Below are positions 11,001 through 31,417 of a stretch of DNA of 34,189 nucleotides, piece after piece. Under the pieces are notes generated by a model. The model saw only the letters and a program-made list of their open reading frames with translations. It made no database searches and had not been told where the DNA came from. Made by a program: the position numbers and the translations under genes. This DNA comes from Candidatus Symbiothrix sp. (GTDB lineage: Bacteria > Bacteroidota > Bacteroidia > Bacteroidales > Azobacteroidaceae). The stretch lies in NCBI GenBank assembly GCA_031261285.1, contig JAISKM010000021.1, positions 1 to 34,189 on the forward strand, in the 5' to 3' direction. Within the stretch, counting starts at the first letter, position 1. The number at the start of each line of letters is the position of its first letter.

Positions 11001-14000
11001 AAAGCAATCGTGTTTACAACCTTGTTAATACCGGCAATTCCGACATAGCAACCGGTTGGGCAGCGGCATCCTTAACCTGTAATGGCCTGGCGATTAGCAA
11101 TTTCCCCGAACTTGTCGGCAAGTTATCGCTACAAGCCACCGGCATCTATGTGCAATTAGCCGTTGGCAAATTAGGCGCCAAAGTGCTGGACTGGGTCGGT
11201 CAAGACGAAGCCGGTAATGCCAATGCTAACTGGAATCAGGCGGTCAAAAACTGGACAAAATACGATGCCTCCCAAGAGTTAGTCAATGGGGATAATACAT
11301 TCGCTTTCGGCAACGATTATGCTAACTTCGGATGGAGAGCATCAAACGCAGGCAGCACTCCGATTCGTGTGGCCGAAGCAGATATTATGCCGTCCGGTAT
11401 GGCATTTAGCGGCGTGAATAACTGGACGTTCATCGACAATGCTATAGCCGGCGACATCCTCACGCTCGGCGGCACCTACACCTCTTCGCTTCCGGCAATC
11501 AACGCAGGGACTCCGTTCTCCGGCACGGTCGATATGACCGCTATTGAAACGGCTTTTGACCAAATCACCATCAACAGCGGAACGCTTCAAGTCAGGGGGC
11601 TTAGTTCCGGTTTTGTAGATGCGGGTTTGAAAAACGGACTGTCTCTCACGGGAAACAGCACGAACGAGGCCATGCTCCTTGTCCTTACCGGCAACTACGT
11701 CTTTGACAGCGAAGTATCGGGCAGCAAAACCGATAAAAACCGGTTAACGTTTGCCAATACAGACCGTGTGACAATCGCACAGGGCGACGGTAAGTGGACG
11801 GTCAAGAACACTACGGACAACCTTGGCGGGGCGATTTACAACGACGGTACGGTTGATCTTTTCAATGTTGATTTTACCGGCAACGCAGCCCTGACTAACG
11901 GCGGAGCGATTTACAACGGCGGCACCCTTAATCTTACCAACGTTGATTTTATCGACAACAGTGCCGTCACCAACGGCGGGGCGATTGCGACAGCAGCCGG
12001 CAGTACAATAAACCTGAATGTGATTGACGGCAAGACGGTCACTTTCTCCGGAAATACGCAAGGAAGCGGCACACTAAATTCAATTTACAACACCGGCAAC
12101 TTGCACGTGAACACCGCAAACGATGCTACTCTGGATATGCTTGACCCGATGGCAGGCGAAGGCGTGAGTGGTCGAGCAGCGATCACCAAGAACGACATAG
12201 GAACATGGAAACTGGCGGGTGATAATGATTTGTCAACGGGTTTAGGAAGCAACTTTACCGTGAATGCAGGAACGTTGTTTCTTTACGGCAGCGAGGCATT
12301 AGCCGGAGTGGGAAAAATCGAACTTGGTGCAGGTAAATTCTCACTCGAACAGGATGCCACACTCGATGGAGAAGGGCAACTCTCCGGTGCCGAGCTAACC
12401 ATCCGCAGCCTTTCAAATACGGCAGGTTCAATAGACTTTCCTGTCCTCAATTTCAACCTGCCCGCCAACACAATCAACGGCAGCAAGGTGCTGGACCTTA
12501 CCGCCGAAGTGGACCTTACCGGTGTAACCGTGAATGTTACGGCCGGCGAATTCACGCCTCTTAGCGAAGGCGAAAGCATTATTTTGCTTGAATCACCTGC
12601 AGGCGTCACTCATTTTACCACCCGAAACATCACGCTGAACAACGTTGATTATTCATTGGAAATTGACCCGACAGAGAAACAATTACGGTTGTTTAACACG
12701 TTGATAGACCAGACAATCACCTGGAATCAAACGTTTGAAGTCGTTTATGGCGATGCACCCATCACGCTTACAGCCACGGCAAGCAGCGGTTTAACGGTCA
12801 GTTTTGATTCCGACGATACGAGTGTTGCAACCGTTTCCGGCGACCAACTCACCATAGTGGGCGCAGGTACGGCGAAAATCACCGCGTCGCAGGCCGGCAA
12901 CGCGACTTACAATGCGGTTACAGATACTGTGCGAGTAGTAACAGTAAATCCGAAATCCGTCACAATCACCGATTTTTCGGCAAGCGATAAAGAATATGAC
13001 GGCAATGCCTACGCGACCATTCTTGGCACTGCCACCATTGACGGAAAAGTGGCAGGCGACGATCTGGACGTAATAGCCGGCTCGGCTACTTTCGATGATA
13101 AGAATGTCGGCACAAACAAGACCGTAACATTTACGAGTTGCAGTTTGGACGGTGCGGCAGCAAAAAACTACACCCTTGCAGCACAACCCGCAAGCGTTCA
13201 GGCGAACATCACGCCGGCACCGGTCACCATAACGCCTTACGCCGGTCAGAATAAATATTATAACAAACCCGACCCCGCCGCCTTTACCTTTAAGGCAAAC
13301 GGACAAGTCAGTGGTGAAATACCCCACTATTCAGGTGCGCTTTCCAGAATTGCAGGCGATTCGGTTTGGACGTACAACATCACGCAAGGCGACCTGGCAT
13401 TTGTTGACAATGGCGCGTTTTTGGCAAACAACTACACGCTTGAGTTCGATGCCGTGCCGGTAGTGTTTACGATTAACGTACGCGTTACGGACTTTATGGT
13501 GGAGGATATTCCATCTTACATCTACACGGGCAGTGCGATAACACCACCCACTCCGGTAGTGAAAGATGACGATGTCACATTGCTCATAGCAGGTACAGAC
13601 TATACGGCATCATTTAGTGATAATACGGATGCCGGTGCAGCAAAAGTGACCATAACGGGTATCAATGGCTACGCAGGAAATGTACACAATACGATATTTA
13701 TCATTGAACCAAAGTTAGTGTCCATTACAGGCTTGGTGGCAAGCGATAAAGAGTATGACGGCAACCCCAAAGCTACTGCTTTCGGGATTGTCGACATTGA
13801 CGGAAAAGTGAAACACGATGATTTAAGTGTGGTAACAGGCTTTGCGACGTTCGCCGACAAGAACGCCGGAACAGGCAAGACGGTCACATTTGAAGATTAT
13901 CGTTTGGGTGGTACGGCCGCAGGAAATTACACACTTGAAGCACAACCGGCAAGCGTTCAGGCGGACATCTCGGCAAAACCGCTGACCATTTCCGGCTTAT

Positions 14001-16516
14001 CTGCCACGAATAAAACGTATGACGGCACCGTCAATGCTCCTGTTTTCGGCAGTGCTACGATTGACGGAAAAGTGGAAGGCGATAATGTAATCCTGGTCGC
14101 AGGTTCGGCTACGTTCAATAATAAGAACATCGGACCCGGCAAAACTGTAACATTTACAGGTTACAGTTTGGATGGCACGGACGCAACCAACTACTCGCTG
14201 TCACAACCGGCAAACGGAACTGCAACTATTACGGCAAAATCTGTGACAATCACCGGTTTGTCTGTTGAAAATAAACCGTATGATGGCAACGCTGACGCCA
14301 CTGTTTCAGGTACTGCCACTCTTTCCGATAATTACGACGGTGATGATCTGACTGTTACAGCAGGTTCGGCTACTTTCAACAATAAGAATGTCGGACCGGG
14401 CAAGAACGTCACATTTAAAAATTACAGATTGGATGGTCCGGAAGCAGACAATTACACGCTTTTGACGCAACCCCTAAGCACAACGGCGAACATCACGGCA
14501 AAATCCGTGACAATCACCGGCTTGTCTGTTGAAAATAAAACGTATGACGGCAACGACAACGCAACAATTCTTGGCACAGCCACCATTGACGGAAAAGTGG
14601 CGGGCGATGATCTAAACGTGGTAACAGGTCTTGCAGTTTTTGCCGACAAGAACGCCGGAACAGCCAAGACGGTCACATTTGAAGATTACGACTTGAGCGG
14701 CTCGGCAGTTGGAAACTACACGCTTTCAGCACAACCGGCAAACGTTACGGCAAACATCACAGCTAAAGCGGTTACGATTACTCCGGACGCCGGTCAAAGC
14801 AAATATTACGGTGCAAATGATCCGGTCTTTACTTTTACGGAAAACGGACAAGTCAGTGGTGAAATACCTGATTATTCAGGTGCGCTCACCAGAGTTGCAG
14901 GCGAAACGGTAGGGCCGTACAACATCACGCCCGGCAATTTGGCATTTATTGACAACGGCGCATTTTTGGCAGACAACTACACACTTGCGTTCGATGCCGT
15001 GCCGGTAGTGTTTACGATTAACACGCTCAATACAACCTTTATGATTGATGACATTCCGTCACAAACCTACACAGGCAGTGCAATAACGCCTACCCCAGTA
15101 GTGAGAGACAACGGCACTTTACTTACGGAAAACACGGATTACACCGTATCCTACAGTAATAATACGGGTGCCGGTGTAGCGAAAGTGACCATTACAGGGA
15201 TCGATCACTACGCAGGAAATGAAGACGACAAAACGTTCATCATTGAGCCAAAGTTAGTGACAATCACCGGCCTGTCGGTAAACAGTAAAGAGTATGACGG
15301 TAACGCCAACGCGACAATTCTTGGCACAGCCACCATTGACGGAAAAGTGGCAGGCGATGATCTAAACGTGGTAACAGGTCTTGCAGTTTTTGCCGACAAA
15401 AACGCCGGAACAGCCAAGACGGTCACATTTGAAGATTACGACTTGAGCGGCTCGGCAGTTGGAAACTACACCCTTGCATCACAACCCGCAAACGTTCAGG
15501 CAAACATCACAGCTAAAGCGGTTACGATAACTCCAAACGCCGGTCAAAGCAAATATTACGGCGCAAATGATCCGGTCTTTACTTTTGAGGCAAACGGACA
15601 ACTCGCCGGTGAAATTCCTGATTATTCAGGTACGCTTGCCAGAATAACAGGCGAAACGGCTGGGACGTACAACATCACGCAAGGTAACTTGGCATTTATT
15701 GACAACGGCGCATTTTTGGCAGACAACTACACGCTTACGTTCGATGCCGTGCCGGTAGTGTTTACGATTATCGAAAATCCGAGCACGGGCGTGAAAACAG
15801 TGACTATAAATGGCACCGGTTTGACCGATAATTTTTATGTAGTGGATTGTGGCGCAACCGAAGCTGTTGTAACCATAACTACCGAAGAGTCGAACGCGCA
15901 AGTAGTGTACAACGGAGTTACCGGTAATACATTCTCGGTTGACATCAGTCGTGCCGATATTTACACCATCGAATACACTGTCATATCCGGCACGGACAAT
16001 CGCGAAAATTACAGTTTGCAAATTGAACGGTACTTTGCTTTTGAGGACATTACCGGTGAGAAATTTAATAATGTGCTGTTTGTAAACAATAACCCCGATA
16101 CCAACGACGGTTATCATTTCACGGCTTACGAATGGTTTAAAAACGGACAGTCTATCGGTACGGGACAATATTATTCCGCAGGCGACACTGGCACCGACCT
16201 GTTAGACCCGACAGCCCAATACAGTGTAACACTTACCACCGATGATGGAAAAGTATTGCACACCTGCGTTGGCTATGTAACCTTGCGTTCAGCCTCGTTG
16301 AAAGTATATCCGAATCCTGCAACAGCAGGAGAAGCTGTTACAATTGAATACGATGCATTCAGAAACTCGGCAAACGATATGGTATTTCTATACAACCTGT
16401 CCGGTCAACAGTTAGGCACGCAAAAATTAAGTGCCGGCAAAATAAACTTGCCAAATAAGCCCGGAACGTATGTGATACAATTAAATAATGAATCAGTAAA
16501 AGTAATAGTAAAATGA
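5006..16516 (+). CDS. Giant T9SS-exported surface protein: beta-helix modules plus YDG/MBG repeats
   Basis: A 3836-residue secreted or cell-surface protein, likely an adhesin. A Sec signal peptide occupies about residues 1-24 (hydrophobic run ending VVNAN). Four modules of about 390 residues follow (starting near 25, 392, 800 and 1184). Each opens with a G(D/M)GSSWANA motif and IWVAAGTYYP, has many GGGIYN / NVTISGN rungs of a right-handed parallel beta-helix (Pmp-like), and closes with IDMGAYE. Two modules of about 500 residues begin VLDWVGQD (near 1562 and 2060). An Ig-like domain lies near 2567-2650, then tandem YDG and MBG-type domains (KEYDGNA..., Y(T/Y)GSAITP). The end (from about 3765) is a T9SS sorting domain: LKVYPNPATAGE to GTYVIQLNNESVKVIVK. 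No catalytic motif is evident. The four-base overlap with the next gene suggests translational coupling. Confidence 0.9.
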   Translation: MKHSKNIRLLLVAAVALAAGVVNANTRFVKQGGSGDGSSWANASGDVQLMINASAAGDEVWVAAGTYKPTIKAGDGSSDRDKAFMLKADVKIYGGFNATNPETSIADRDWVTNTTILSGDLGTAGDNSDNAYHVVIASYWEYGVNAALLDGFTITGGNSNGGANSSISISMVGGLTEVYRDSGGGLYFNETLPTPTLTNLIISGNSANDYGGGLFSRYASPKLTNVTISGNKAAKGAGIGNYASSPVLTNVTIAGNKGYGLYSSFSGTSKLFNTIVWGNTNNIYKSMGNNITYQNSLVQGLDPAGTGNLAGTADPKFVSPALASAAPTNSGDYRLSDTSPCIGQGDNTSYLTARGIPNFDGEKDLAGRPRKIGANIDMGAYEEQTPPTPTPDDSGTLYVKTGGTGDGSSWANAYPNLADPLQQADKQSKGTIPAAASDTIRQIWVAAGTYYPMYIAGTSPQDRNKAFVLVNNVKIYGGFPANANDIDNTTITDRDWATNITTLSGDIDGNDLLDAGNVNHVVISAGDVGTALLDGFTITGGSATDTRVVSVNKQSIYGDQGGGIEIQGSSPTLTNLVVSGNRASYYGGGIYNRGAPTLINVTISGNSGNYGAGIYNDGTSTLTNVTISGNSGNYGAGIFNNRNSTLTNVIISGNSATSRGGGIYNEGYTITMKNSIVAENTSSNGPDIWVYNDNSTFVNASYSLIGNMAQSGGKTATLITGNITGIDPQFVGSGDYSLQETSRAVNAGDNSTYITAIEAATGAPFGGWADEKDLAGNPRLTGTNIDMGAYENQTIVPTPNAFGILHVKTGGTGDGSSWANAYPNLAEPLRQADRQRKNTITAAASDTIRQIWVAAGTYYPMYKAGDFTDLTEDSDKAFVLANNVKIYGGFPADANDTDNTTISDRDWATNMTTLSGDIDGNGTLTDNAYHVVVSVGAVGTALLDGFTITGGNANGSTSNTINGISIIRLAGGGIYSQNSSPTLIHVTISGNTAGFGGGIHLQNSSTTLTNVTISGNSVTADGGGINNSSSSPTLTNVTISGNTSSRNGSGIYLQNSSPTLTNTIVWGNTGGNNIEISSGTPIYNHSLVEGLNPGGTNLDGTNASNDPQFANASTGDYLINSESPVANAGDNAAYIAAIEAATGTSFGGWEAEKDIAGNPRLYNVTIDMGAYEVQTKPAVPTPDASGILFVKDGGAGAMDGSSWANAHPNLADPLRQADKQRKSMITVAASDTIRQIWVAAGTYYPMYMAGTGSEDSDKAFVLVEDVKIYGGFEGSETSIDERDWATNVTTLSGDIDNNGTLDEGNTNHVVVSAGDVGTAQLDGFTITGGNARAGYSISVNGQSVDASFGGGIINVSSSPALRNVIIIGNKANYGGGIHNMSSSPTLTNATISGNTLITGGASGGGIYNDNSSPTLTNVTISGNIGDYGGGIYNVNSSPVLNNSIVWGNNGYSENIYDSGADNTPTYNYSLVEDLTLTGNGNLDGTDSANNPLFTNADAGDYSLNLRSPAVNAGDNAAYITATEAATGSSFGGWAAEKDLAGNPRLEGASIDMGAYEVQTIPNVLDWVGQDDNGMVDKNWNQTVKNWKVYDDAQSLVNGDKAFVSDLDCVNFGYRQSNPNSTPIMVAAEGVEPFDIAFSGADNWSFAEGGGKISTKRMTLGVYFNDPFPLSMDNPFSGVIDMTKIDTDFKQIIIDGGTLKVKELSPAFVSNGLASVNALTLRGTNANQATLSVEQGDYVFDSEGTDKNRLTVYMTEHAKIELAAGATWTVKNAAVLGDLGATIYNSGNLTLTGGTFNFIDNITDQDGGAIYNDGGTFNLNVTGGKTATFSGNKAMSYRLNSIHNTGHLTVNTAEGAVVDMLDPMAGEGVSSAATITKSGAGTWKLAGENDLNTSLGTNFTVSAGTLDLYKKGDVGDFGATKIKLGAGIFTLTDTLVTHAVAADHASQISASTVNSTGGVLAFDLSGVVDITGSSTNNLTLEATTFTGVPTIDLRNINDLQSNRVYNLVNTGNSDIATGWAAASLTCNGLAISNFPELVGKLSLQATGIYVQLAVGKLGAKVLDWVGQDEAGNANANWNQAVKNWTKYDASQELVNGDNTFAFGNDYANFGWRASNAGSTPIRVAEADIMPSGMAFSGVNNWTFIDNAIAGDILTLGGTYTSSLPAINAGTPFSGTVDMTAIETAFDQITINSGTLQVRGLSSGFVDAGLKNGLSLTGNSTNEAMLLVLTGNYVFDSEVSGSKTDKNRLTFANTDRVTIAQGDGKWTVKNTTDNLGGAIYNDGTVDLFNVDFTGNAALTNGGAIYNGGTLNLTNVDFIDNSAVTNGGAIATAAGSTINLNVIDGKTVTFSGNTQGSGTLNSIYNTGNLHVNTANDATLDMLDPMAGEGVSGRAAITKNDIGTWKLAGDNDLSTGLGSNFTVNAGTLFLYGSEALAGVGKIELGAGKFSLEQDATLDGEGQLSGAELTIRSLSNTAGSIDFPVLNFNLPANTINGSKVLDLTAEVDLTGVTVNVTAGEFTPLSEGESIILLESPAGVTHFTTRNITLNNVDYSLEIDPTEKQLRLFNTLIDQTITWNQTFEVVYGDAPITLTATASSGLTVSFDSDDTSVATVSGDQLTIVGAGTAKITASQAGNATYNAVTDTVRVVTVNPKSVTITDFSASDKEYDGNAYATILGTATIDGKVAGDDLDVIAGSATFDDKNVGTNKTVTFTSCSLDGAAAKNYTLAAQPASVQANITPAPVTITPYAGQNKYYNKPDPAAFTFKANGQVSGEIPHYSGALSRIAGDSVWTYNITQGDLAFVDNGAFLANNYTLEFDAVPVVFTINVRVTDFMVEDIPSYIYTGSAITPPTPVVKDDDVTLLIAGTDYTASFSDNTDAGAAKVTITGINGYAGNVHNTIFIIEPKLVSITGLVASDKEYDGNPKATAFGIVDIDGKVKHDDLSVVTGFATFADKNAGTGKTVTFEDYRLGGTAAGNYTLEAQPASVQADISAKPLTISGLSATNKTYDGTVNAPVFGSATIDGKVEGDNVILVAGSATFNNKNIGPGKTVTFTGYSLDGTDATNYSLSQPANGTATITAKSVTITGLSVENKPYDGNADATVSGTATLSDNYDGDDLTVTAGSATFNNKNVGPGKNVTFKNYRLDGPEADNYTLLTQPLSTTANITAKSVTITGLSVENKTYDGNDNATILGTATIDGKVAGDDLNVVTGLAVFADKNAGTAKTVTFEDYDLSGSAVGNYTLSAQPANVTANITAKAVTITPDAGQSKYYGANDPVFTFTENGQVSGEIPDYSGALTRVAGETVGPYNITPGNLAFIDNGAFLADNYTLAFDAVPVVFTINTLNTTFMIDDIPSQTYTGSAITPTPVVRDNGTLLTENTDYTVSYSNNTGAGVAKVTITGIDHYAGNEDDKTFIIEPKLVTITGLSVNSKEYDGNANATILGTATIDGKVAGDDLNVVTGLAVFADKNAGTAKTVTFEDYDLSGSAVGNYTLASQPANVQANITAKAVTITPNAGQSKYYGANDPVFTFEANGQLAGEIPDYSGTLARITGETAGTYNITQGNLAFIDNGAFLADNYTLTFDAVPVVFTIIENPSTGVKTVTINGTGLTDNFYVVDCGATEAVVTITTEESNAQVVYNGVTGNTFSVDISRADIYTIEYTVISGTDNRENYSLQIERYFAFEDITGEKFNNVLFVNNNPDTNDGYHFTAYEWFKNGQSIGTGQYYSAGDTGTDLLDPTAQYSVTLTTDDGKVLHTCVGYVTLRSASLKVYPNPATAGEAVTIEYDAFRNSANDMVFLYNLSGQQLGTQKLSAGKINLPNKPGTYVIQLNNESVKVIVK
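14561..15471 (+). repeat. Near-identical direct repeats in the YDG region
   Basis: Segments 14561-14721 and 15311-15471 are 161 bp each and differ at three positions by my count. They lie 750 bp (250 residues) apart. The identity at DNA level, with clear but weaker similarity continuing downstream, points to recent duplication or gene conversion. The unit contains one YDG domain, one MBG-type domain and one YTGSAITP-type domain. Confidence 0.85.
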
Positions 16517-20583: not shown

Positions 20584-20607
20584 GATTTTAAGTTTTAATT
20601 AAGACCG

Positions 20608-20682
20608 TCGAGGTACCAGGATTCGAACCTGGGACCCCCTGCTCCCAAAGCAGGTGCGCTAACCGGACTGCGCTACACCTCG
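20608..20682 (-). tRNA. tRNA-Pro (anticodon UGG)
   Basis: A 75-nt cloverleaf can be drawn: acceptor CGAGGTG/TACCTCG (last pair G-T), D stem GCGC/GCGC, anticodon stem CCTGC/GCAGG with loop TTTGGGA (anticodon TGG), T stem CCAGG/CCTGG with loop TTCGAAT, discriminator A. CCA is not encoded. The 5' 46 nt are duplicated at 27093-27138 by integration of the mobile element. Confidence 0.97.
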
Positions 20683-20700
20683 ATTTCATTTGCGACTGCA
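20637..20700. repeat. Left attachment repeat, within intact tRNA-Pro
   Basis: 64 bp identical to 27093-27156. It runs from CCCT in the variable/anticodon region through the anticodon and D arms to GACTGCA upstream of the gene. Crossover probably lies in the tRNA part, for example the anticodon arm (inference). Confidence 0.88.
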
Positions 20701-20706
20701 AAGGTA
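20699..20706 (-). promoter_or_regulatory. -7 promoter element of tRNA-Pro, spanning the element junction
   Basis: On the minus strand this reads TACCTTTG followed by CAG, a perfect TAnnTTTG. The 64-bp repeat shared with the other end stops at 20700, so six of the eight bases come from outside the repeat. At the other copy the corresponding sequence is TATCCTGTG, a poor match. Confidence 0.7.
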
Positions 20707-20919
20707 AGAATAAATTACGAATTAAAAATTAAAAATTACGGTTTTTTTTGAAAAAAATGATAAATTTTATTTATATTGCTGATAATCAATTATTTATATT
20801 TTTTTTCAAAAGAATGAGAGGAATAGACATATAGTTGAATTGTTTGCAAATAGGAATGAAAAATGCTTTTGATAAAAAAATTGTGTTGCTTTTTTTAGTT
20901 TTTGAGAATGCCCGTTTTA

Positions 20920-20979
20920 AGGCATTTTGAGGCACTTTGTGTAAACCGCTGTGTAAACCAAGATATAAACCAAGTTTAC
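20920..20979 (+). promoter_or_regulatory. Direct-repeat cluster immediately upstream of the integrase start
   Basis: (G/A)TAAACC occurs at 20941, 20953 and 20965, exactly 12 bp apart, followed by an inverted GTTTAC at 20974 abutting the start codon. Just upstream, AGGCA(T/C)TTTG occurs twice, 10 bp apart (about 20920-20940). Helically phased repeats next to int suit arm-type integrase, excisionase or repressor binding sites. The rest of 20707-20919 is A/T rich and holds a single AATTAAAAATTACG-type array (20712-20740). Confidence 0.5.
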
Positions 20980-22188
20980 ATGAGTACAACAGTTAATGTC
21001 GTGTGTTACACGTCCAAAGTATTAGCAAACGGAACAAGTCCGTTGATGTTAAGAGTGAGTAAAGACAGAAAAAGAAAGTATCAAAGTTTGGGTATATCTG
21101 TCAAACAAGAGGATTGGGATTTTCAAAAGAATAAGCCCAAAGCAAATTGTCCCAACAGAGAATTGATTTTGAAAATTATGCTTGATAAAGAATTGGAATA
21201 TCAGAAACAGATTTTAGAATTGCAAGCAGAGGAGAAAGATTATACCGCATCGACTTTGATAGTTTCAAAGGTCAAGGTCAAACGGATGTCAGTTTGTGAA
21301 TTTTATACAGAAGTGATAAAAGAGTATGAGCATGCCAATAAAATCGGCAATTCAAGGGTCTATAAAGACTCTTTCAATTCGTTGAAAAATTTTACTGCTA
21401 ACAAGTTGGATATTCCATTTTCACATATTGACGTGGATTTTTTGAAAGGATATGAGAAATATTTGCGTGAAAATCAATGTACAGAAACAACTATGAGTTT
21501 GTATTTCAGGACATTGCGAAGCATCTACAACAAAGCGATTGATGCCAAGCACGTGAAGAAAGCAGACTATCCGTTTGATGAGTTTAGAGTGTCTAAATTT
21601 GATACAAAAACGGAAAAGCGAGCCATTCAGAAAGAGGACATTAAACAAATCATTGATTTGGATTTGAGCGATGAAAGTCATGTAATGCGATTAAGTCAGG
21701 ATTTATTTGTATTCAGTTATCTGTGTGGTGGTATCAATTTTGCGGATATGGCAAGCCTAAAAGCGGAAAATATTGTAAATGGACGATTAGTGTATGTGAG
21801 GCAAAAAACGCACAAGAAAATCAATGTTTCGCTGTCTGTAAATGCGTTGGCTATCATTGCAAAGTACGCAAATCACGCGAATGGCTATGTGTTCCCAATT
21901 TTAGATAATACTATTCACATGACAGAAACACAGAAATACAACCGCAAAAAGAAAGTGTTGCGCAATATCAATGCTTGTTTGAAGAAAATATCAGCAAAGA
22001 CAGGCATCAATGCCAAGATAACGACCTACGTTGCACGCCACTCATTTGCCACCGTCTTAAAGCGTTCAGGCGTGAATGTGGCGTTGATTTCAGAGGCGTT
22101 GGGGCACAGCGATTTGGCAACTACGCAAATTTATTTGGACAGTTTTGAAAACAGTCAGATTGATGCGGCTATGGCTAATTTGCTGTGA
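20980..22188 (+). CDS. Tyrosine recombinase / integrase of the island
   Basis: Site-specific recombinase likely to integrate and excise the element at tRNA-Pro. From the Met at 20980 it is 402 residues, starting with the Bacteroidota arm-binding domain (VNVVCYTSKVLANGTSPLMLRV...DRKRKYQSLGISV), then a SAM-like core-binding domain and the catalytic domain. Box II shows TTYVARHSFATVLKRSG and LGHSDLATTQIYLDSF with the nucleophilic Tyr near residue 385. In the box I region (FSYLCGGINFADMASLK) there is no arginine at the usual Arg I site, a feature described for the IntDOT group. The frame extends 26 residues upstream, but that part is made of a 12-bp direct repeat, so I take the internal Met. A terminator follows. 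Confidence 0.92.
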   Translation: MSTTVNVVCYTSKVLANGTSPLMLRVSKDRKRKYQSLGISVKQEDWDFQKNKPKANCPNRELILKIMLDKELEYQKQILELQAEEKDYTASTLIVSKVKVKRMSVCEFYTEVIKEYEHANKIGNSRVYKDSFNSLKNFTANKLDIPFSHIDVDFLKGYEKYLRENQCTETTMSLYFRTLRSIYNKAIDAKHVKKADYPFDEFRVSKFDTKTEKRAIQKEDIKQIIDLDLSDESHVMRLSQDLFVFSYLCGGINFADMASLKAENIVNGRLVYVRQKTHKKINVSLSVNALAIIAKYANHANGYVFPILDNTIHMTETQKYNRKKKVLRNINACLKKISAKTGINAKITTYVARHSFATVLKRSGVNVALISEALGHSDLATTQIYLDSFENSQIDAAMANLL

Positions 22189-22226
22189 GTATCAACGTTT
22201 CTCAACTAGACACAATGTTGGAAATC

Positions 22227-22257
22227 AAGACCGTTTCGTAATTGGAGCGGTCTTTTT
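22227..22257 (+). terminator. Intrinsic terminator after the integrase gene
   Basis: AAGACCG (22227-22233) pairs with CGGTCTT (22248-22254) and runs into seven Ts. It is immediately followed by the -7 element of the next gene. Confidence 0.8.
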
Positions 22258-22260
22258 TTG

Positions 22261-22268
22261 TATCTTTG
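22261..22268 (+). promoter_or_regulatory. -7 promoter element of the ATPase gene
   Basis: TATCTTTG followed by CC, 25 bp before the ATG at 22294. It lies directly behind the integrase terminator and within the longer version of the reading frame, which argues for the internal start codon. Confidence 0.65.
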
Positions 22269-22293
22269 CCGAAAATTTCAAAAAATAATTATT

Positions 22294-24117
22294 ATGGACG
22301 AAAAAGATTTGCATTTTTGGCTATACAGTCGAGAAATTAAAATTAGTAAGGGGCAATATTTAGGCGATGTATTGCCTGAAATCCCGACTAATACGATATT
22401 GGCGAAAACAGTGCCTGGCGTTGGGGCTACTACTTTGGAAATAAACACGCCACGTCATTCTATCATCATCGAGCCAAATGTGCCTGTCATCAAAGGCAAA
22501 GCGCAAAAACATAAAAATTTGTTGGGTGTGTATGAGGGCGTTTCAACCGATGATGTTTTCAAGTATTTGGAACGTCCAAGTAAAGAGCACAAAAAGATTA
22601 TGACAACCCCTGAAAGTTTTTTCAAAGTGATACGAGCGATGAAGTTGCTGCAAATTGATTACCGCAAAGATTATATGTTGCTGTTTGATGAGTGCGACAA
22701 AATCATCAAAGACGTTGATTACCGTGATACGATTGCGTTTCCAATGGAAGACTTTTTTCTGTTTGAACGCAAAGCGTTTGTTTCAGCGACCCCGATTTTG
22801 CCACACGACCCACGTTTTGAACAACAAGAATTTGAATTATTAAAAATTGTCCCTGATTACGATTATACCAAGAAAATGCAATTAGTGACGACTAACAATG
22901 TGGTTGCCGTATTTCGTAAAGTGTTGGCTATGTGTGACAATCAAAAGGATGTGTGCGTTTTTCTTAATTCAACAGATACTATCCACGCCATTATTGAAAA
23001 ATTCGGATTGCAAGAAACATCCAAAGTCTATTGTTCCCAAGACAGTGTTATTAAACTTCATACTTTGGGCTATGGAAATGCCTTTGCCGATTTGCAACTA
23101 GACAGCAAAAAGAACGTAAAATTAGCACAACACACGTTTTTCACTAGTCGGTTTTTCTCTGCCGTTGATATTGATTCAACCGTACAGCCCACCATTCTAA
23201 TCATTACCGATTTGTTCTATGCCAAACATTCGATGATTGACCCCAAGACAGAGGCGATACAGATTATTGGGCGTTTTCGGAATGGAACAGGCGGGATAAT
23301 CCACGTTTCAAACACGGATTGGAATCTTTCATGTAAAACGCCTAGTGAGATAGACAATTACTTAAACGGTTGCCACGAGGTTTATATGCAAATCAAGCAT
23401 TTATTTGAAACAGCCACAAACGAGGGGGCAAAAGATGCGCTGAAAGAGGTATTACAGAGGATTAGTTATGCCAAATATGTTGATGAAAACGGAAACAAAA
23501 AGCATTTCGCCATAGATAACTATTTCGATGAGGAGCGTGTGAAAAGTTATTATCAACGTCCCAACTTCTTGAAAGCTGCGTACTTAGATACTCCCTACTT
23601 TGAATTAAAATATCAGCACTTTGATTCGCCTTTGGGCGATGAAGACCATCTGAAAATTAAACAAGCAGATAATAAAAAAGATAAACGGCTTATTATTCTA
23701 GACCTGTTGGATAAGCTAAACGGAGAAAAAGACGTTTACGATGAACCATTATTCAAAGAATTTCGGGATTCACTACACAAAGATGATTCACTGATTGTGG
23801 AAGTTTATGAAGAATTGGGCGCAGTTTACGCAAAGGCAAATCTGATGTCAGACAAAAAAATGAAGTTGGCTTTGATAAAACACAGAAGCGAACATGGACA
23901 AGACAGGTTTGCCATAATGACTTCTATTTATGCCGTTTTTTCAGAGGGACAAAAATATCAAGTTGAGTACATAAAATCAACGATACGGAAAATTTATAGT
24001 TCCTATGGCGATAGTACTTCCTACCCGACGGCAAAGATAAAAGACTTCTTTGCAGTCAATGAGAATGTTCGGTTACGTGGGCAAAGAGCCTACTTGCTGA
24101 TAAAGAAACGTAATTGA
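22294..24117 (+). CDS. SF2-helicase-like ATPase with altered Walker A, mobile-element associated
   Basis: A 607-residue protein with helicase motifs in order. A P-loop-like PGVGATT is at residues 41-47, where the usual lysine is Ala45. LLFDECDKI (DE at 132-133) is the Walker B/DEAD-like motif. VSATPI (163-168) is motif III. QIIGRFRNG (323-331) is motif VI with its arginines. The C-terminal 250 residues are helical and charged without recognisable motifs. I recall similar proteins with G-x-G-(A/G)-T-T loops in Bacteroidota mobile elements, annotated only as DEAD/DEAH-box family. It may remodel DNA for the element or act in phage defence; neither can be shown here. It has its own promoter and a terminator 90 bp downstream. 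Confidence 0.7.
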   Translation: MDEKDLHFWLYSREIKISKGQYLGDVLPEIPTNTILAKTVPGVGATTLEINTPRHSIIIEPNVPVIKGKAQKHKNLLGVYEGVSTDDVFKYLERPSKEHKKIMTTPESFFKVIRAMKLLQIDYRKDYMLLFDECDKIIKDVDYRDTIAFPMEDFFLFERKAFVSATPILPHDPRFEQQEFELLKIVPDYDYTKKMQLVTTNNVVAVFRKVLAMCDNQKDVCVFLNSTDTIHAIIEKFGLQETSKVYCSQDSVIKLHTLGYGNAFADLQLDSKKNVKLAQHTFFTSRFFSAVDIDSTVQPTILIITDLFYAKHSMIDPKTEAIQIIGRFRNGTGGIIHVSNTDWNLSCKTPSEIDNYLNGCHEVYMQIKHLFETATNEGAKDALKEVLQRISYAKYVDENGNKKHFAIDNYFDEERVKSYYQRPNFLKAAYLDTPYFELKYQHFDSPLGDEDHLKIKQADNKKDKRLIILDLLDKLNGEKDVYDEPLFKEFRDSLHKDDSLIVEVYEELGAVYAKANLMSDKKMKLALIKHRSEHGQDRFAIMTSIYAVFSEGQKYQVEYIKSTIRKIYSSYGDSTSYPTAKIKDFFAVNENVRLRGQRAYLLIKKRN

Positions 24118-24133
24118 TTATTTTCTATGATAG

Positions 24134-24182
24134 GACATTTTTGAAAATATATAGGTTATATACCCCCAAAACAGAAAATGTC
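24134..24182. other. Long inverted repeat downstream of the ATPase gene
   Basis: GGACATTTT (24136-24144) faces AAAATGTCC (24175-24183), with TATATAGGTTATATA-type symmetry in the loop. It could be an RNA hairpin at the transcript end or a binding site for the serine recombinase encoded downstream. No evidence decides between these. Confidence 0.4.
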
Positions 24183-24208
24183 CCACTTCTTAAAAATCTA
24201 AACGAAAA

Positions 24209-24258
24209 CAGCCCCTAACACCAATTTTTCAGGATTGGAAGTTAGGGGCTGCTTTATT
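24209..24258 (+). terminator. Strong intrinsic terminator
   Basis: CAGCCCCTAAC (24209-24219) pairs with GTTAGGGGCTG (24241-24251); CCAAT/ATTGG extends the stem inward. A T-rich tract follows. Confidence 0.85.
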
Positions 24259-24591
24259 TTTTAGTATCAAGACCTTGTTATCTTAAAAAATCCCCCCTCC
24301 ACTTCAATGAAAGACACTTAAACAAGCGTAGAGAGCCACTTAAATCCCTCTCTGTAATCGAAGAGAGAGAAGAAAGTTTTTTTTTCTTTCAGACACAAAA
24401 CGGCACTCTAAAAAACAATCGAACGACCGACTACCAAAATAACACGTCAAAAATCCATTTTAATGCCTGTGAGTATAGCCTCCATTTTCCACTTTGCAGC
24501 ACCAGAAAGGCAGGAAATTGGCTCAAATCTAAGTGGCATTTTAATGACGAACGTTATTAAAACGCTAATTATTCACTAATACATATCTTTT
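24259..24591. other. Non-coding gap upstream of the serine recombinase
   Basis: No credible reading frame is present. It contains a short purine/pyrimidine inverted stretch (CTCTCT...AGAGAGAG, about 24349-24370) and long A or T runs. Recombination sites for the downstream recombinase would be expected here, but no clear paired dyads typical of a res site were recognised. Confidence 0.4.
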
Positions 24592-25257
24592 ATGAAATAC
24601 ATCGTCTATTACAGAGTATCTACAAAGCGGCAGGGCTTATCTGGTCTAGGTTTAGAAGCGCAACGGACAATTGTGTCCAACTACATCAAAGGCAATAAGG
24701 TCATTGCTGAATTTACGGAAATTGAAACAGGCAAGAGCGCAAACCGACCACAGTTAAACAATGCTTTGGCAGCTTGTAAGCAACACAACGCTACTCTGAT
24801 AGTGGCTAAGTTGGACAGACTTGCGAGAAATCTGCATTTTGTCACTAGTTTGCAGGCAGCCAACGTTGATTTTATTTGTTGCGATATGCCAACGGCTAAC
24901 CGCCTGACCATTCATATCATTGCAGCCATTGCAGAGAATGAGGCGCAACTGATTAGTACACGAACAAAACAAGCCTTAGCAGAAAAGAAGAAGCAAGGCA
25001 TCAAGTTAGGCAATCCGCAAAACAACGGTTTGACTAGTCAGAGCATCGCAAAAGGCAGGCTGTTAAGGCAAGAAAACGCGCTGCACAACGAACAAAACAG
25101 GCAAGCGGGCACGTTAATTCTATCCATGAAAAGCAGCGGCTCTAAATGGTCTGCAATCGTGGGACAGTTAAACGCCAACGGCTTTAAGACCCGCAGAGGC
25201 TGCGATTTTGACATTACAGCGGTCAAACGGTTGTATGGTCGTTATAATTTAGCGTAA
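24592..25257 (+). CDS. Serine recombinase (resolvase/invertase family)
   Basis: A 221-residue small serine recombinase. The catalytic domain starts YIVYYRVSTKRQG with Arg8 and the nucleophile Ser10. It continues with GLGLEAQR, TEIETGKSANRPQL, IVAKLDRLARNL (active-site arginine helix) and AENEAQLISTRTKQALAEKKKQGIKLGNP, the long helix E leading to DNA binding. The C-terminal part (SMKSSGSKWSAIVGQLNANGFKTRRG) resembles the helix-turn-helix found in these proteins. It may resolve multimers, invert a segment, or act on a second site of the element. A target site was not identified. Confidence 0.9.
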   Translation: MKYIVYYRVSTKRQGLSGLGLEAQRTIVSNYIKGNKVIAEFTEIETGKSANRPQLNNALAACKQHNATLIVAKLDRLARNLHFVTSLQAANVDFICCDMPTANRLTIHIIAAIAENEAQLISTRTKQALAEKKKQGIKLGNPQNNGLTSQSIAKGRLLRQENALHNEQNRQAGTLILSMKSSGSKWSAIVGQLNANGFKTRRGCDFDITAVKRLYGRYNLA

Positions 25258-25284
25258 AAAATGCTTTCGTATTCAAAAATTCAT

Positions 25285-25292
25285 TATCTTTG
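25285..25292 (+). promoter_or_regulatory. -7 promoter element of the island non-coding RNA
   Basis: TATCTTTG followed by TCG. TTTCG about 17 bp upstream is a weak -33 candidate. Confidence 0.6.
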
Positions 25293-25549
25293 TCGCATAA
25301 TTCTGACAGTTCATAGCGTTGGACTTTTGGAAGGACATTTTGATAAACGAAAGCGTTTTAGATATTACTTTGTCTAAGAAAATCCACAATTTTCAAGACT
25401 GTACAAAGTGATAGACAGTAAATGCTTGCGTTCTGTTTGTATATAATTGATTTATATGCAATATAGAGCGCAGGATTGCTGTTTATTTGTACAGTTGGGT
25501 ATGTGGATGCCTCTTAGACAGATAAACTAACAGTTCCTGCGCTTTTTTT
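25293..25549 (+). ncRNA. Structured non-coding RNA, copy A (unrecognised family)
   Basis: No plausible protein is encoded. The RNA has two domains. Domain 1: P1 GCGTTT (25353-25358) with AAATGC (25420-25425); P2 TTACTTTGT (25365-25373) with ACAAAGTGA (25403-25411); P3 GAAAAT (25378-25383) with ATTTTC (25389-25394). An A/T hairpin (TTGTATATAA...TTATATGCAA, about 25437-25461) follows. Domain 2: GCGCAGGA (25468-25475) with TCCTGCGC (25535-25542), then GTTTATTTGT (25481-25490) with ACAGATAAAC (25518-25527). Its large apical loop contains TTGGG and GCCTCT. Seven Ts after the outer stem make a terminator. The 5' end is estimated from the promoter. Copy B at 33650-33915 has the same architecture. 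The HNH gene starts 58 bp after the terminator. Confidence 0.75.
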
Positions 25550-25607
25550 GTGTAAAAAATTATAAACTGCTGAACGGTGGGGACAGGGAGGCGAAAAACA
25601 AATTATT

Positions 25608-25910
25608 ATGGCGAGATGTAACAGTACAATTCAATTAGAAGTCCATCACAAAAACAGTAATGGTGGAAACAATTTAAGCAATGCAGAGGTGCTTTGTCAC
25701 AAATGTCATCAACAAACACTTTCTTATGGCAGACCGCATGGAAGTTCTCCTCCTCTGTTTTCAGAAGAAACGAAAAGACAGGCAATGCAAAGAGCAGGCA
25801 ACAGATGTGAGTGTGAAAGAACAACGTGCAATCATTTCTCAATTTTAGACAGTCTTGGTTTGCCAAATACCGCATTGGGTAATTTACAAAGCACATTTTC
25901 TCATAGATGA
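25608..25910 (+). CDS. Small HNH-motif protein
   Basis: A 100-residue protein with an HNH-type core, LEVHHKNSNGGNNLSNAEVLCHKCHQQT: His13-His14, Asn22/Asn25 and the zinc knuckle CxxCH at 30-34. A second Cys-containing start of a zinc motif (RAGNRCECERTTCNH) follows at about residues 62-78, after which the sequence ends without a matching HNH core. The protein may be a short family member or one truncated at the 3' end. No RuvC domain is present, so it is not IscB/Cas9-like. Nuclease activity and target are unknown. It follows the structured RNA closely on the same strand. Confidence 0.6.
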   Translation: MARCNSTIQLEVHHKNSNGGNNLSNAEVLCHKCHQQTLSYGRPHGSSPPLFSEETKRQAMQRAGNRCECERTTCNHFSILDSLGLPNTALGNLQSTFSHR

Positions 25911-25979
25911 CGAGTTACAAACAAATTAAGTAATAAAAAAATGAACACAAAAACAACATTCAATTTACACAACAAGACA

Positions 25980-26327
25980 ATGAAACACCGCTTATTAATC
26001 GTTATATTATTCATTCTAGGAATGAGTAGTTGTTCAGGTGAAGAAGATTTATTTATTCACAATGTTCGTACATACGAATATACTGTTTATTCTTCAACTC
26101 TAGTTTCAATTCATTTTGATACACGCATAAATCAATTTATTGTGCATCCTGAATCTTCAGTAATATCTATTGAAGAAAATATGACTGATCACGGAAATTT
26201 TCCTATCGAAGAAGCAAACCAAAGGTTCGACTCATTTTTCAATTTGATACGAGTTGCCGATAATCTTAAATGGGGAGAGAATTTGTATCGTAACACTGGG
26301 TATTATCGAACATGCGTTAAAATATGA
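25980..26327 (+). CDS. Small lipoprotein of unknown function
   Basis: From Met at 25980 it has a typical lipoprotein signal, MKHRLLIVILFILGMSSC, with the lipidated Cys18 followed by SGEED. An acidic stretch after the Cys matches the Bacteroidota lipoprotein export signal. The remaining 98 residues are mixed alpha/beta without a recognised domain. An upstream Met at 25941 would add 13 polar residues and makes a worse signal peptide. It is on the mobile element as cargo. Confidence 0.65.
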   Translation: MKHRLLIVILFILGMSSCSGEEDLFIHNVRTYEYTVYSSTLVSIHFDTRINQFIVHPESSVISIEENMTDHGNFPIEEANQRFDSFFNLIRVADNLKWGENLYRNTGYYRTCVKI

Positions 26328-26354
26328 TTTCTCGTACTAAAGCTCATGTCTTAA

Positions 26355-26468
26355 CACGTAACAGTATGTGTGTTGACAAGTGTCAATGGCAGTGTTGAAA
26401 TTAGTTTGAACAAGGGCGTTTATATCGTGAGTGTGAGGAATGAAAGTCAAAAAATAATTATAAAATAA
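26355..26468 (+). pseudogene. Decayed T9SS C-terminal sorting tail
   Basis: The frame from 26355 to the TAA at 26466-26468 encodes NGSVEISLNKGVYIVSVRN followed by ESQKIIIK. This is the characteristic end of T9SS (Por secretion) sorting domains (G-x-Y-I-V ... K-I/V-I-x-K). A stop codon (26352-26354) precedes it and no signal peptide or passenger is attached, so it is the 3' remnant of a secreted-protein gene. The end of the 3836-residue protein (GTYVIQLNNESVKVIVK) is closely similar in form. Confidence 0.7.
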
Positions 26469-26474
26469 AAAGTT

Positions 26475-26900
26475 ATGGAGTGTTGGAGTTTTACGCTATC
26501 AATTGTTTCTATTTTGTTAGCAATCTTTTCAGTTTATTGGGCAACTGTTGCTTGCCGATTGAAGCCAAATTTGGAAATCGGTGTCCCATATATTAAAAAC
26601 GGCAAAATCAATGTTAATGTGGTCAATAGCGACCGACGTGCTGCTATCAACATAAAGGTGGAAATTTGTACGGTAAGAGGTAACGATTTTACTGGTTATT
26701 TTAAGGTTGATAAGGGGGATTTTTTAATGTTGCCAAGTAAAAAAGACCGTGTGTTTAAATGCGAAGAGAGACCAATAGACGATAATACAATTATTCGTAT
26801 TAGAGTTTACGCAGCCAATGCGGATAGTGGTTTTGGGAAAGTGTTTGATGCAGAATTTAGATACGATGCAAAAACAGGCAAGTTTGAACATACAAAGTAA
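26475..26900 (+). CDS. Small membrane-anchored protein of unknown function
   Basis: 141 residues. Residues 5-27 form one transmembrane helix (FTLSIVSILLAIFSVYWATVA). The remaining 110 residues look like a beta-sandwich domain (alternating hydrophobic strands such as INVNVVNSDRRAAINIKVEI) presumably on one side of the membrane. No family is recognised. It follows the T9SS-tail remnant by 6 bp and is the last gene of the mobile element before the attachment repeat. Confidence 0.6.
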   Translation: MECWSFTLSIVSILLAIFSVYWATVACRLKPNLEIGVPYIKNGKINVNVVNSDRRAAINIKVEICTVRGNDFTGYFKVDKGDFLMLPSKKDRVFKCEERPIDDNTIIRIRVYAANADSGFGKVFDAEFRYDAKTGKFEHTK

Positions 26901-26909
26901 AAACAATCC

Positions 26910-26940
26910 GAACGGCAGGCACTAAAAACGCTTGCCGTTC
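26910..26940. terminator. Hairpin after the last island gene
   Basis: GAACGGCA (26910-26917) pairs with TGCCGTTC (26933-26940). There is no T tract on the plus strand, so termination would be inefficient or factor-dependent; a T run exists on the minus-strand side. Confidence 0.5.
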
Positions 26941-27017
26941 TAGTAAAAATAGTGAGAATAAAAATAATAATAACAATCATCTTGGGAAAAACATCAGTTA
27001 AACCATGAAGTAAACTA

Positions 27018-27051
27018 AAAAGAAAAAGCAATTACTTGATTTCGTAATTGC
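27018..27051 (-). terminator. Intrinsic terminator for transcripts from the mutB side
   Basis: On the minus strand GCAATTAC and GTAATTGC (27044-27051 and 27028-27035) form a stem followed by TTTTTCTTTTT. It would stop mutB transcripts inside the right end of the mobile element. Confidence 0.75.
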
Positions 27052-27092
27052 CTGATATTGAGATTGTTGAGAGCCTAAAATAGTGTGTAAAA

Positions 27093-27156
27093 CCCTGCTC
27101 CCAAAGCAGGTGCGCTAACCGGACTGCGCTACACCTCGATTTCATTTGCGACTGCA
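27093..27156 (-). repeat. Right attachment repeat: 5' half of tRNA-Pro
   Basis: Identical over 64 bp to 20637-20700. It includes the acceptor 5' strand, D arm and anticodon stem-loop but no T arm or acceptor 3' strand, so it cannot make a tRNA. The upstream promoter match is lost here. Confidence 0.88.
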
Positions 27157-27220
27157 CAGGATACCGAATTGTTGAATCCTGACCCAAACAGCCTCGACTG
27201 GAGAGGATAATTGCCTATTG

Positions 27221-27246
27221 TAGGGGCGACCCTTGTGGTCGCCCTC
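27221..27246. repeat. REP-like palindrome downstream of mutB
   Basis: GGGCGACC (27224-27231) pairs with GGTCGCCC (27237-27244), preceded by TA. It is the same type as the palindrome in the methyltransferase gene (TAGGGGCG ... CGCCC). It lies 14 bp beyond the mutB stop codon. Confidence 0.7.
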
Positions 27247-29339: not shown

Positions 29340-30470
29340 TTATTTAATTTTATTTGTTATTTTTTGTTGTAAATATATCTCTTTTTGTCGCTCAATCTCT
29401 CGTTGCAATTCTTCCTCCGTAGGCAGATAATCCATGTATTTGGTAGCAAACACCTGCTTGTTTTCATTCAGAACAGAATACTTTGCAATCACCTGATCCG
29501 TTTCCGTACAAAGTAAAATACCAATAGTAGAGTTGTCGCCTTCGCGACGTTCCAAGTCGTCATACATTCGCACGTACATATCCAATTGCCCAATATCCTG
29601 ATGTGTTATCTTGTTGGTTTTCAATTCAATAATCACAAAACATTTCAGAATGTAATTGTAAAATACCAGGTCAATATAAAAATCTGACGTTTCAGTACGA
29701 ATCAATTTTTGCCTGTCCACAAACGCAAATCCTTTGCCCAATTCAAGCAAAAATCGCTGCATCTGGTCAATAATAGCGTGTTCCAATTCCGATTCGGTGT
29801 AGCCTGTATTTGCAGGAAGTCGAAGAAATTCCATCACAGTAGGATTTTTGATAAATTCCAATGGATCGTTTTGCAACTCCTTAGTTTTTTCCTGCATCTC
29901 AGCTATTACAGGCTCTTTCACTTGGGAAGACAACAATCGTTGGTAATACAATGTGGAAATATTTCTATCCAAAGTGCGTACAGACCAAGTGTTTTCTGCG
30001 GATTCTTTCATATAATATGCTCGTGCCTCAGGATTTGAAACCCGCATTATCCGTTGGATATGTGACCAAGTTAGATGTTGAAAATGAGGTTGCCAAGATT
30101 GTGCGAACAGTGTTCGCACAATTGTATTCGGCTGATTATCAGTATTTTGTAATTCGGCGAACGGTGTTCGCCGAATTGAAGAATCAGAAAACATTTGATA
30201 AAACTGGCGATATTGTCTAATGCTTCGTTCCGAAAACCCTTGCCCAAATTCCTTGGTCAAGGCGGCAGAAAGCCGTTTAAGCAAACCTGCACCATATTCG
30301 GCACGTTCCTCACCCTGCTGCTCCTGCTCCACAATGCGCTTACCAAGATTCCAATAGGTCTCCACCATCGCACTATTAATGGCACGATAAGCCTGCGATT
30401 GTCCATTTTGGATAATCGTTTTGACTTCGTTAATAAACGTCTGCTCAGTTTGTGCGATTGCTGTGTGCAT
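29340..30470 (-). CDS. DUF1016/YhcG-family PD-(D/E)xK nuclease
   Basis: 376 residues. The N-terminal domain ([34 protein letters not shown]...[25 protein letters not shown]) is the DUF1016 N-terminal fold. The C-terminal half is the nuclease domain: [10 protein letters not shown] with Asp267 and FVIIELKTN with Glu282-x-Lys284. Such proteins occur in defence islands and near restriction systems. Residues about 98-124 are an extra segment encoded by two palindromes, between the conserved QFYQMF and [12 protein letters not shown] motifs. It starts 14 bp after the Mrr-like gene and ends one base before mutB, so all are probably co-transcribed. Confidence 0.9.
30099..30177. repeat. Pair of perfect palindromes inside the DUF1016 gene
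   Basis: 30099-30121 has 11-bp arms TTGTGCGAACA/TGTTCGCACAA around one base. 30151-30177 has 12-bp arms AATTCGGCGAAC/GTTCGCCGAATT around three bases. Both share the core GCGAAC-GT-GTTCGC, are 29 bp apart, and together encode the related peptides RRTPFAEL and VRTLFAQ. They look like a duplicated in-frame insertion. Confidence 0.8.
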
Positions 30471-30484
30471 ATTTTCTTGTTATT

Positions 30485-31417
30485 TTATATTTCATCAAAA
30501 TAATCACCATCCATTTTCTTTACATCATATTGTATTTTTGTTGCTACGCCAATTCCATGCTCAATCATTAATTCGGCTAACTCTACTCCATCAATCAGAA
30601 CTATTTTAGGCTCTATGCTTGCGACGAAATCATACGCCCCCCTTGGATAATTAGAAGTTGAAATAAAAATACCTTTTTTTGCCTTTTTTGAAAGAAGTGA
30701 ACCGGCAAAATCTCTAACCTGTGAAATTGGGACTGTGTTATCCCATCTCTTAGCCTGTATATAAATAGTATCAAGCCCCAATTTATCTTCTTTAATAATT
30801 CCGTCTATCCCCCCATCTCCCGATTTTCCAATTGTTTGTCCTGCATCTCTTTTAGATCCACCATAGCCCATTTTGAGCAATAAATCAATAACAAGACGCT
30901 CGAAAAAATTTGGAGAACAACTTTTAATTTTTTCAATAAGTTCTTCTGCTAAATCATTTTTTAATTGATTAAACGAATAGTCTAAAAGTTCTTCCGGAGT
31001 TTTTTCTGTTGTAAATTCATCCGATTGGCTAATCGGAATGAGTTTTTTGTTTTTTATGAGATATGTTTTTCTCCATTCTTGAAAATCAGGGAGTTGTTCA
31101 AGATACTTTATGTCAATACGTCTTGGCTTTGAATCCAATACTTGCAATCCTTTTTCCGTAATAATAAACGTGGCTCGTCTGGGTGAATTAAGTAATCCCG
31201 CCTTTTTTAAGTAAGTTTTTGCCCAAGCAACCCTATTGTTAATTATTTCTTGATTTCCGCTTGGTAGAAGTTCTGTCCTTTGCTCATTTGAAAGATCAAA
31301 TCTATCACAAATTTGTTGAATGGAATAGTGAAGACTATGTTCTTGTTTATCTGCAAACACTTCTAAAAGAGGAAGCATAATAGTTTGAAAATCTGGAATA
31401 TTCATATTTATTTTCAA
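30485..31417 (-). CDS. Mrr-like restriction endonuclease (type IV type)
   Basis: 310 residues. An N-terminal winged-helix Mrr_N domain (residues 1-100, with PLLEVFADKQEHS and NRVAWAKTYLKKAGLLNSPRRATFIITEKG) is followed by a linker and the Mrr catalytic domain. This has FFERLVIDLLLKMGYGG, the acidic pair GDGGIDG near residue 210, and IYIQAKRW with the QxK variant of PD-(D/E)xK. Mrr enzymes cut methylated foreign DNA. No methyltransferase is nearby, consistent with a modification-dependent enzyme. It is first of two nuclease genes placed between mutA and mutB. Met5 is an alternative start. Confidence 0.92.
   Translation of the reverse strand: MKINMNIPDFQTIMLPLLEVFADKQEHSLHYSIQQICDRFDLSNEQRTELLPSGNQEIINNRVAWAKTYLKKAGLLNSPRRATFIITEKGLQVLDSKPRRIDIKYLEQLPDFQEWRKTYLIKNKKLIPISQSDEFTTEKTPEELLDYSFNQLKNDLAEELIEKIKSCSPNFFERLVIDLLLKMGYGGSKRDAGQTIGKSGDGGIDGIIKEDKLGLDTIYIQAKRWDNTVPISQVRDFAGSLLSKKAKKGIFISTSNYPRGAYDFVASIEPKIVLIDGVELAELMIEHGIGVATKIQYDVKKMDGDYFDEI

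Follow-up and report, generated by a model that had tools for sequence, protein, structure and literature searches.

How can a small integrative element occupy a tRNA gene when it duplicates the 5' half of the tRNA together with its upstream region, so that the promoter of the intact gene lies inside the element? This question is raised by a locus in a 34,189-nucleotide stretch of DNA from Candidatus Symbiothrix sp. (Bacteroidales; GenBank assembly GCA_031261285.1, contig JAISKM010000021.1, positions 1 to 34,189; hereafter the window). We propose that positions 20637-27156 are an integrated small element, belonging to a Bacteroidota family in which the integrase uses the anticodon stem-loops of tRNA genes for recombination, that its tRNA module has been flipped and that it has captured host 5' DNA. 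We give this reading a probability of roughly 0.68.

A repeat of the tRNA-Pro 5' half bounds an integrative element

As shown in Table 1, an intact tRNA-Pro(TGG) gene lies at one end of the interval and a displaced fragment of it lies as a direct repeat at the other. The search of the genome itself revealed no TGG copies of tRNA-Pro in the assembly other than this gene and its fragment, and a separate tRNA-Pro(CGG) gene. The sequences 20637-20700 and 27093-27156 are identical at 64 of 64 base pairs (bp), and the repeat extends to 68 bp with one mismatch; chance falls far short of explaining a perfect 64-bp repeat within 34 kb. The repeat spans tRNA positions 1-46, comprising the 5' half with the entire anticodon arm, and 18-22 bp upstream. 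The anticodon stem is palindromic (CCTGC..GCAGG) and occupies 20638-20642 and 20650-20654 in the left copy, with the loop at 20643-20649. The G+C content is ~32-42% inside the interval versus ~44-50% in the nearest flanks. The enclosed segment, ~6.4 kb in size, holds six open reading frames (ORFs), one of which encodes a tyrosine integrase.

The ends of the segment carry motifs of the kind expected of arm-type integrase sites. Pairs of TAAAC spaced by 12 bp occur in the whole window only at 20942/20954 and 26999, which are the two element ends; thus, both ends of one element are fixed independently of the tRNA repeat. Relatives have the motif in common with the window. Among 12 scanned relatives other than L180, TGTAAACC-type motifs were found at both ends on the integrase strand, and in most of the 12 they form 12-bp pairs; in L177, L181 and L166 one end yielded a single motif of the pair, and the period is 11 bp in L173. 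A different repeat, TGTTGTACC, is present at the two ends of L180. We conclude that the segment between the repeats is a genuine integrative element and that it works as tRNA islands with an arm-binding integrase ordinarily do. The earlier note on this DNA had described a small integrative element in tRNA-Pro with a perfect 64-bp repeat of the tRNA 5' half and its upstream flank, carrying both a tyrosine and a serine recombinase but no transfer or packaging genes; its coordinates and description of the repeat were right, and the integrase, repeats, arm motifs, family relationship and gene content bear out the rest.

A flipped tRNA module in comparison with the island family

Homologues of the integrase with 36-64% identity were found in tRNA islands across the class; several of these islands share the gene for a helicase-like protein, and the closest also share the serine recombinase. 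Elsewhere in Bacteroidales, the helicase-like protein is 34-46% identical and usually has a 42-53% identical integrase nearby, and it was absent from the 40 congeneric genomes searched. The closest relatives are an IMG/VR contig (L194, IMGVR_UViG_3300006045_000028; integrase 63% and helicase 71% identity) and a metagenome-assembled genome of Prevotellaceae (L148; integrase 62% identity). The gene order integrase, variable genes, helicase-like gene, RadC and serine recombinase is common to L194 and a Bacteroides finegoldii record; unlike in these two, RadC was not recognised in the window. The serine recombinase has a homologue (L194) or a similar gene (L196) at the equivalent position in the two best-resolved relatives, and because of this recurrence we dropped the idea that it marks a second, nested element or a hitchhiker. 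Apparently, these integrase/helicase-like islands form a family that is widespread in gut-type bacteria of the Bacteroidota and without a name.

Standard relatives have a repeat that starts at tRNA position 20-32 and extends through the 3' end, immediately beyond which is the integrase gene, read in the tRNA direction. Duplication of the 3' half in this way, with the tRNA reading toward the integrase gene, is seen in most Bacteroidales relatives, whereas the window element combines a flipped tRNA orientation with a 5'-half repeat. L170 and L181 repeat the entire tRNA. In L174 and the more distant L219 and L224, the direction of the tRNA is away from the integrase, the fragment at the integrase end being the whole tRNA in L174 and the 3' half in the other two. 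The 5' half (tRNA positions -1 to 47) is duplicated in L180, a distant member of the family. The nearest rows to the window element in the integrase tree are L194 and L148, both in standard orientation at tRNA-Val, and L180 is far away; the 5'-half use of the window element thus most likely arose separately.

L179 was not counted as a further flipped case, its far end not being found within 24 kb. Integration of an unmodified standard element in the wrong orientation was set aside, since it would destroy the tRNA at both junctions. The resolved repeats in the family include the anticodon arm, as the window repeat does, and from this arm with its palindromic stem we infer a crossover in the anticodon loop. 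Because either tRNA direction and either half of the gene (the 5' half here and in L180) are found within one integrase family, an orientation change of an anticodon-targeting integrase becomes testable.

Several relatives showed further features at their ends. The copy of the attachment (att) repeat distal to the integrase gene in L172, L175, L177 and L166 is a tRNA with an insert of ~30-40 bp in the D-loop region, around position 20, and inserts of this kind account for the sharp left edge of the 3'-half repeats. L172 and L174 both carry a second, short tyrosine recombinase (195 amino acids) near the integrase-distal end of the island. The contig of L166 (G302) starts and ends exactly within its 73-bp att repeat, which may reflect coexisting integrated and excised forms or a simple repeat break.

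The tRNA-Pro promoter lies inside the element interval

The -7 box TAnnTTTG is the Bacteroides promoter consensus (PMC7366714). It was found upstream of 18 of the 20 compared tRNA-Pro loci, and the intact gene in the window has a box (TACCTTTG) placed mostly beyond the perfect repeat, whereas the displaced copy is preceded only by the degenerate region TATCCTGTG. The sequence at 20683-20815 aligned with the native upstream DNA of tRNA-Pro in G008 with a score of 81 versus 34±6 for shuffled sequences (0/500) and had no match to the element ends of relatives; sequence of the family type starts again at 20886. Where relatives have the tRNA 3' half and, adjoining it, the terminator module, the window has roughly 200-250 bp of tRNA 5' half and upstream DNA of host type. 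The right arm sites lie 93-105 bp from the anticodon loop, matching relatives, whereas the left arm sites lie 294-318 bp away versus about 113-157 bp in relatives, indicating extra DNA (roughly 150-180 bp) between the core and the left arms. On sequence evidence, the repeats, arm-site motifs, family relationship, flip and promoter contrast are established.

Two dispersed host repeats touch the region. One is an AT-rich AATTAAAAATTAAAAATTACG motif (window 20707-20740) with ~50 matches, often beside promoter -7 boxes, and several of its copies adjoin CAAAGGTA-type boxes; the other, GTAGGGGCGACCCTTGTGGTCGCCC (window 27220-27246), also has ~50 matches. Both recur on many other contigs of the host genome (G000).

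In the model that we propose, the integrase would bind the paired arm sites at both ends, with the palindromic anticodon stem as the core and the anticodon loop as the overlap. Because the attachment site would carry its tRNA module in flipped orientation with respect to the integrase and arms, the integrase-side end would complete the tRNA with a 5' half and upstream region, and the host DNA of roughly 200-250 bp would have been captured in this way. The functional tRNA-Pro would then be read from a host-type promoter inside the interval that the integrase would excise, and the displaced 5' half would retain only a degenerate -7 region. Since the promoter box lies between the repeats and the displaced copy has none, excision should leave the sole tRNA-Pro(TGG) found in the assembly with a poor promoter. 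The integrase may be active at present; if so, the tRNA-Pro(TGG) would be left behind the degenerate box, which predicts strong retention of the element. That the element is indeed hard to lose, its flipped module carrying the only tRNA-Pro(TGG) promoter, and that the integrase family switches between 3'- and 5'-half use through the palindromic anticodon stem, is a tentative extension that we consider doubtful. This family also makes it testable whether an island gains protection against loss from a tRNA promoter that it carries.

Element-free loci and alternative explanations

The earlier note had suggested comparison with relatives lacking the 20701-27092 segment, and no exact empty site was found among the relatives. 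In three genomes (G008, G041 and G045), kbl or its remnant adjoins tRNA-Pro with a native promoter and no element; their DNA on the right differs from that of the window, and mcm is found on separate contigs, followed by dissimilar sequence. These kbl-tRNA-Pro loci are consistent with an element-free ancestor. At two of them, L123 (G045) and L124 (G041), all that is left of kbl beside tRNA-Pro is ~26 codons from its start and ~22 from its end.

Several points weigh against integration with a flipped module. Besides the missing exact empty site, there are no reads showing excision, and the source assembly is fragmented into 171 contigs. The match between 20683-20815 and the upstream DNA of G008 is AT-rich. 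No similarity to native tRNA-Pro upstream DNA was detectable in the right flank, where simple integration predicts the original promoter. Plain neutral decay is hard to reconcile with 64 bp of perfect identity next to a -7 region that differs abruptly. Finally, the presence of host-type DNA at 20701-20860 may indicate that host sequence as far as about 20886 never moved.

This last point leads to a different history, in which homologous or illegitimate recombination, or gene conversion, linked host DNA at about 20886 and 27160 to a family element with a flipped tRNA-derived end like that of L174. The left tRNA and its promoter would then never have moved, and the right copy would be a relic of an att site. 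Host-type upstream DNA is indeed unbroken from the tRNA to about 20815-20860, with family sequence beginning at 20886. The right flank shows no relationship to native upstream DNA, mcm is on other contigs in relatives, and the right end has an inverted terminator module with no recognisable tRNA 3' half. However, this history needs two unexplained junctions, direct-orientation anticodon sites with arm sites at both ends are the expected product of site-specific integration, and the other members with both ends resolved fit such integration. We regard secondary joining as rather unlikely.

The suggestion in the earlier note that the element is satellite-like or hitchhiking is compatible with flipped integration, as it concerns life style: the element would replicate with the help of the helicase-like gene and be packaged by a helper phage. 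Two relatives and the lack of transfer genes found in the element point this way. The L194 element has phage tail-like, holin and amidase genes as neighbours and is placed between two 3' halves of tRNA-Val; a prophage and a small island seem to share one tRNA site here, arranged in tandem. A 4.3-kb record from human faeces labelled Bacteriophage sp. (L197, MT839350; unverified) carries integrase and helicase-like genes beside a tRNA-Pro 3' half. However, no packaging, capsid-remodelling or phage-derived regulatory gene was found in the element, tandem use of one tRNA can be coincidental, and the virus-particle origin of MT839350 is presumptive. The suggestion is possible and unproven, and we judge a phage satellite unlikely.

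That the assembler was led by the 64-bp repeat to join the element to the wrong flank is very improbable: the assembly is fragmented, the contig of the G302 relative is interrupted exactly at its 73-bp att repeats and the right flank is unlike that of relatives, but 64 bp is shorter than usual read lengths, and the arm sites and terminator remnants present at both ends are independent evidence for a single element between the copies.

Gene content and other features of the window

The helicase-like family keeps DE, SAT and QxxGRFR motifs, and GxGAT replaces the Walker A motif GxGKT in 9 of the 9 aligned members. This protein family, conserved in Bacteroidales islands, had no clear Pfam or NCBIfam match, a PDB profile search gave no meaningful match, and structure prediction for the protein (three rows, two distinct sequences) was unusable, with a mean predicted local distance difference test score of 34. 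Domain searches of the six ORFs found no relaxase, conjugation, terminase or capsid genes; the relaxase and/or conjugation genes of an integrative and conjugative or mobilizable element and the packaging, capsid-size or satellite regulatory genes of a phage satellite were likewise not among them. Apart from weak HNH matches, PADLOC matched neither the integrase nor the helicase-like protein nor the serine recombinase to a defence system.

Table 1. Features of the element and its tRNA-Pro locus (window positions)
Feature	Position	Strand	Evidence or remark
tRNA-Pro, anticodon TGG, intact	20607..20682	-	ARAGORN, Rfam
Left attachment copy, 64 bp: anticodon stem, tRNA 5' half, 18 bp upstream	20637..20700	.	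Sequence repeat
-7 promoter box TACCTTTG of intact tRNA	20699..20706	-	Mostly past perfect repeat, inside element interval
Host-type upstream DNA	20707..20815	.	First ~35 bp dispersed host repeat; stretch aligns with G008 native tRNA-Pro upstream
Original integrase-proximal element end, starting at remnant tRNA-terminator T-run	20886..20979	+	Aligned with L148 (1/500 shuffles), L166 (0/500)
Left arm-type sites TGTAAACC/TGTAAACC/TATAAACC, 12-bp period	20940..20971	+	Motif scan
Tyrosine integrase, 402 amino acids	20980..22188	+	Arm-DNA-bind_5, SAM_5, Phage_integrase domains
Helicase-like protein, 607 amino acids, superfamily 2-like motifs, no Walker A lysine	22294..24117	+	Recurrent integrase partner
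Small serine recombinase, 221 amino acids	24592..25257	+	PF00239; homologue at equivalent position in L194
HNH-nuclease-like fragment, probably truncated	25608..25910	+	Weak HNH matches
Lipoprotein-like cargo ORF, 128 amino acids	25941..26327	+	Weak DUF4765 match, under cut-off
Small ORF, 141 amino acids, N-terminal hydrophobic segment, no family	26475..26900	+	ORF list, domain searches
Right arm-type sites GTTAAACC/AGTAAACT, 12-bp period	26997..27016	+	Motif scan
Inverted copy of tRNA-terminator module, terminator-like hairpin	27017..27056	-	0/500 shuffles versus L148, L194, L196, L170
Right attachment copy: 5' half of tRNA-Pro, displaced, with 18 bp	27093..27156	.	Sequence repeat
Degenerate -7 region of displaced copy, TATCCTGTG	27155..27163	-	No consensus box

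Elsewhere in the window, two nuclease-like genes (29340-31417; PADLOC PDC-S02, type IV restriction-like matches) lie between two methylmalonyl-CoA mutase subunit genes, an interval that varies in length across related genomes. A 3836-amino-acid ORF with many repeated extracellular-type units occupies 5006-16516.

Comparison with known systems

The Bacteroides finegoldii island (NZ_OY725919) and IMGVR_UViG_3300006045_000028 resemble the window element in their order of integrase, variable genes, helicase-like gene, RadC and serine recombinase and in an anticodon-arm repeat, but they have the standard 3'-half orientation, at tRNA-Lys or tRNA-Val, and a RadC that was not found in the window. The core site of Bacteroides NBU1 is at the 3' end of tRNA-Leu. 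NBU1 and CTnDOT, with IntN1 and IntDOT, likewise use a Bacteroidota arm-binding tyrosine integrase, whereas no relaxase or transfer genes were found in the window element. Integrases of this type are reported, in work cited in PMC10865867, to tolerate overlap mismatches.

The tRNA and tmRNA islands of Islander (PMC4383910) are alike in having an onboard tyrosine integrase, an intact tRNA at one end, a fragment at the other and an anticodon-arm repeat; they differ in that here the fragment is 5' instead of 3' and the promoter lies inside the repeat-bounded interval. The earlier note had set 5' duplication apart from most tRNA-targeting integrases. The geometry holds, but 5' fragments are a known minority: Islander counts 159 of 3919 islands with 5' tRNA fragments versus 3760 with 3' fragments (PMC4383910), so the arrangement is rare and already known, and the archaeal pTN3 family uses the tRNA 5' half (PMC8371274).

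In pTN3-like elements of Thermococcales (PMC8371274, PMC5495485), as in the window, the tRNA 5' half is the shared att sequence and the tRNA is rebuilt but parted from its original promoter. The pTN3 integrase gene is split by its own attP in a suicidal integration, whereas the window integrase, of the bacterial arm-binding type, is encoded by an uninterrupted ORF. SpyCI of Streptococcus (PMC3430984), an unrelated element whose target is the protein gene mutL, also sits at the 5' end of a host gene, which in one strain is expressed from a promoter inside the island. In functional terms, pTN3-like elements (PMC8371274, PMC5495485) and SpyCI (PMC3430984) come nearest to the window element, as cases in which a promoter within an element serves a host gene.

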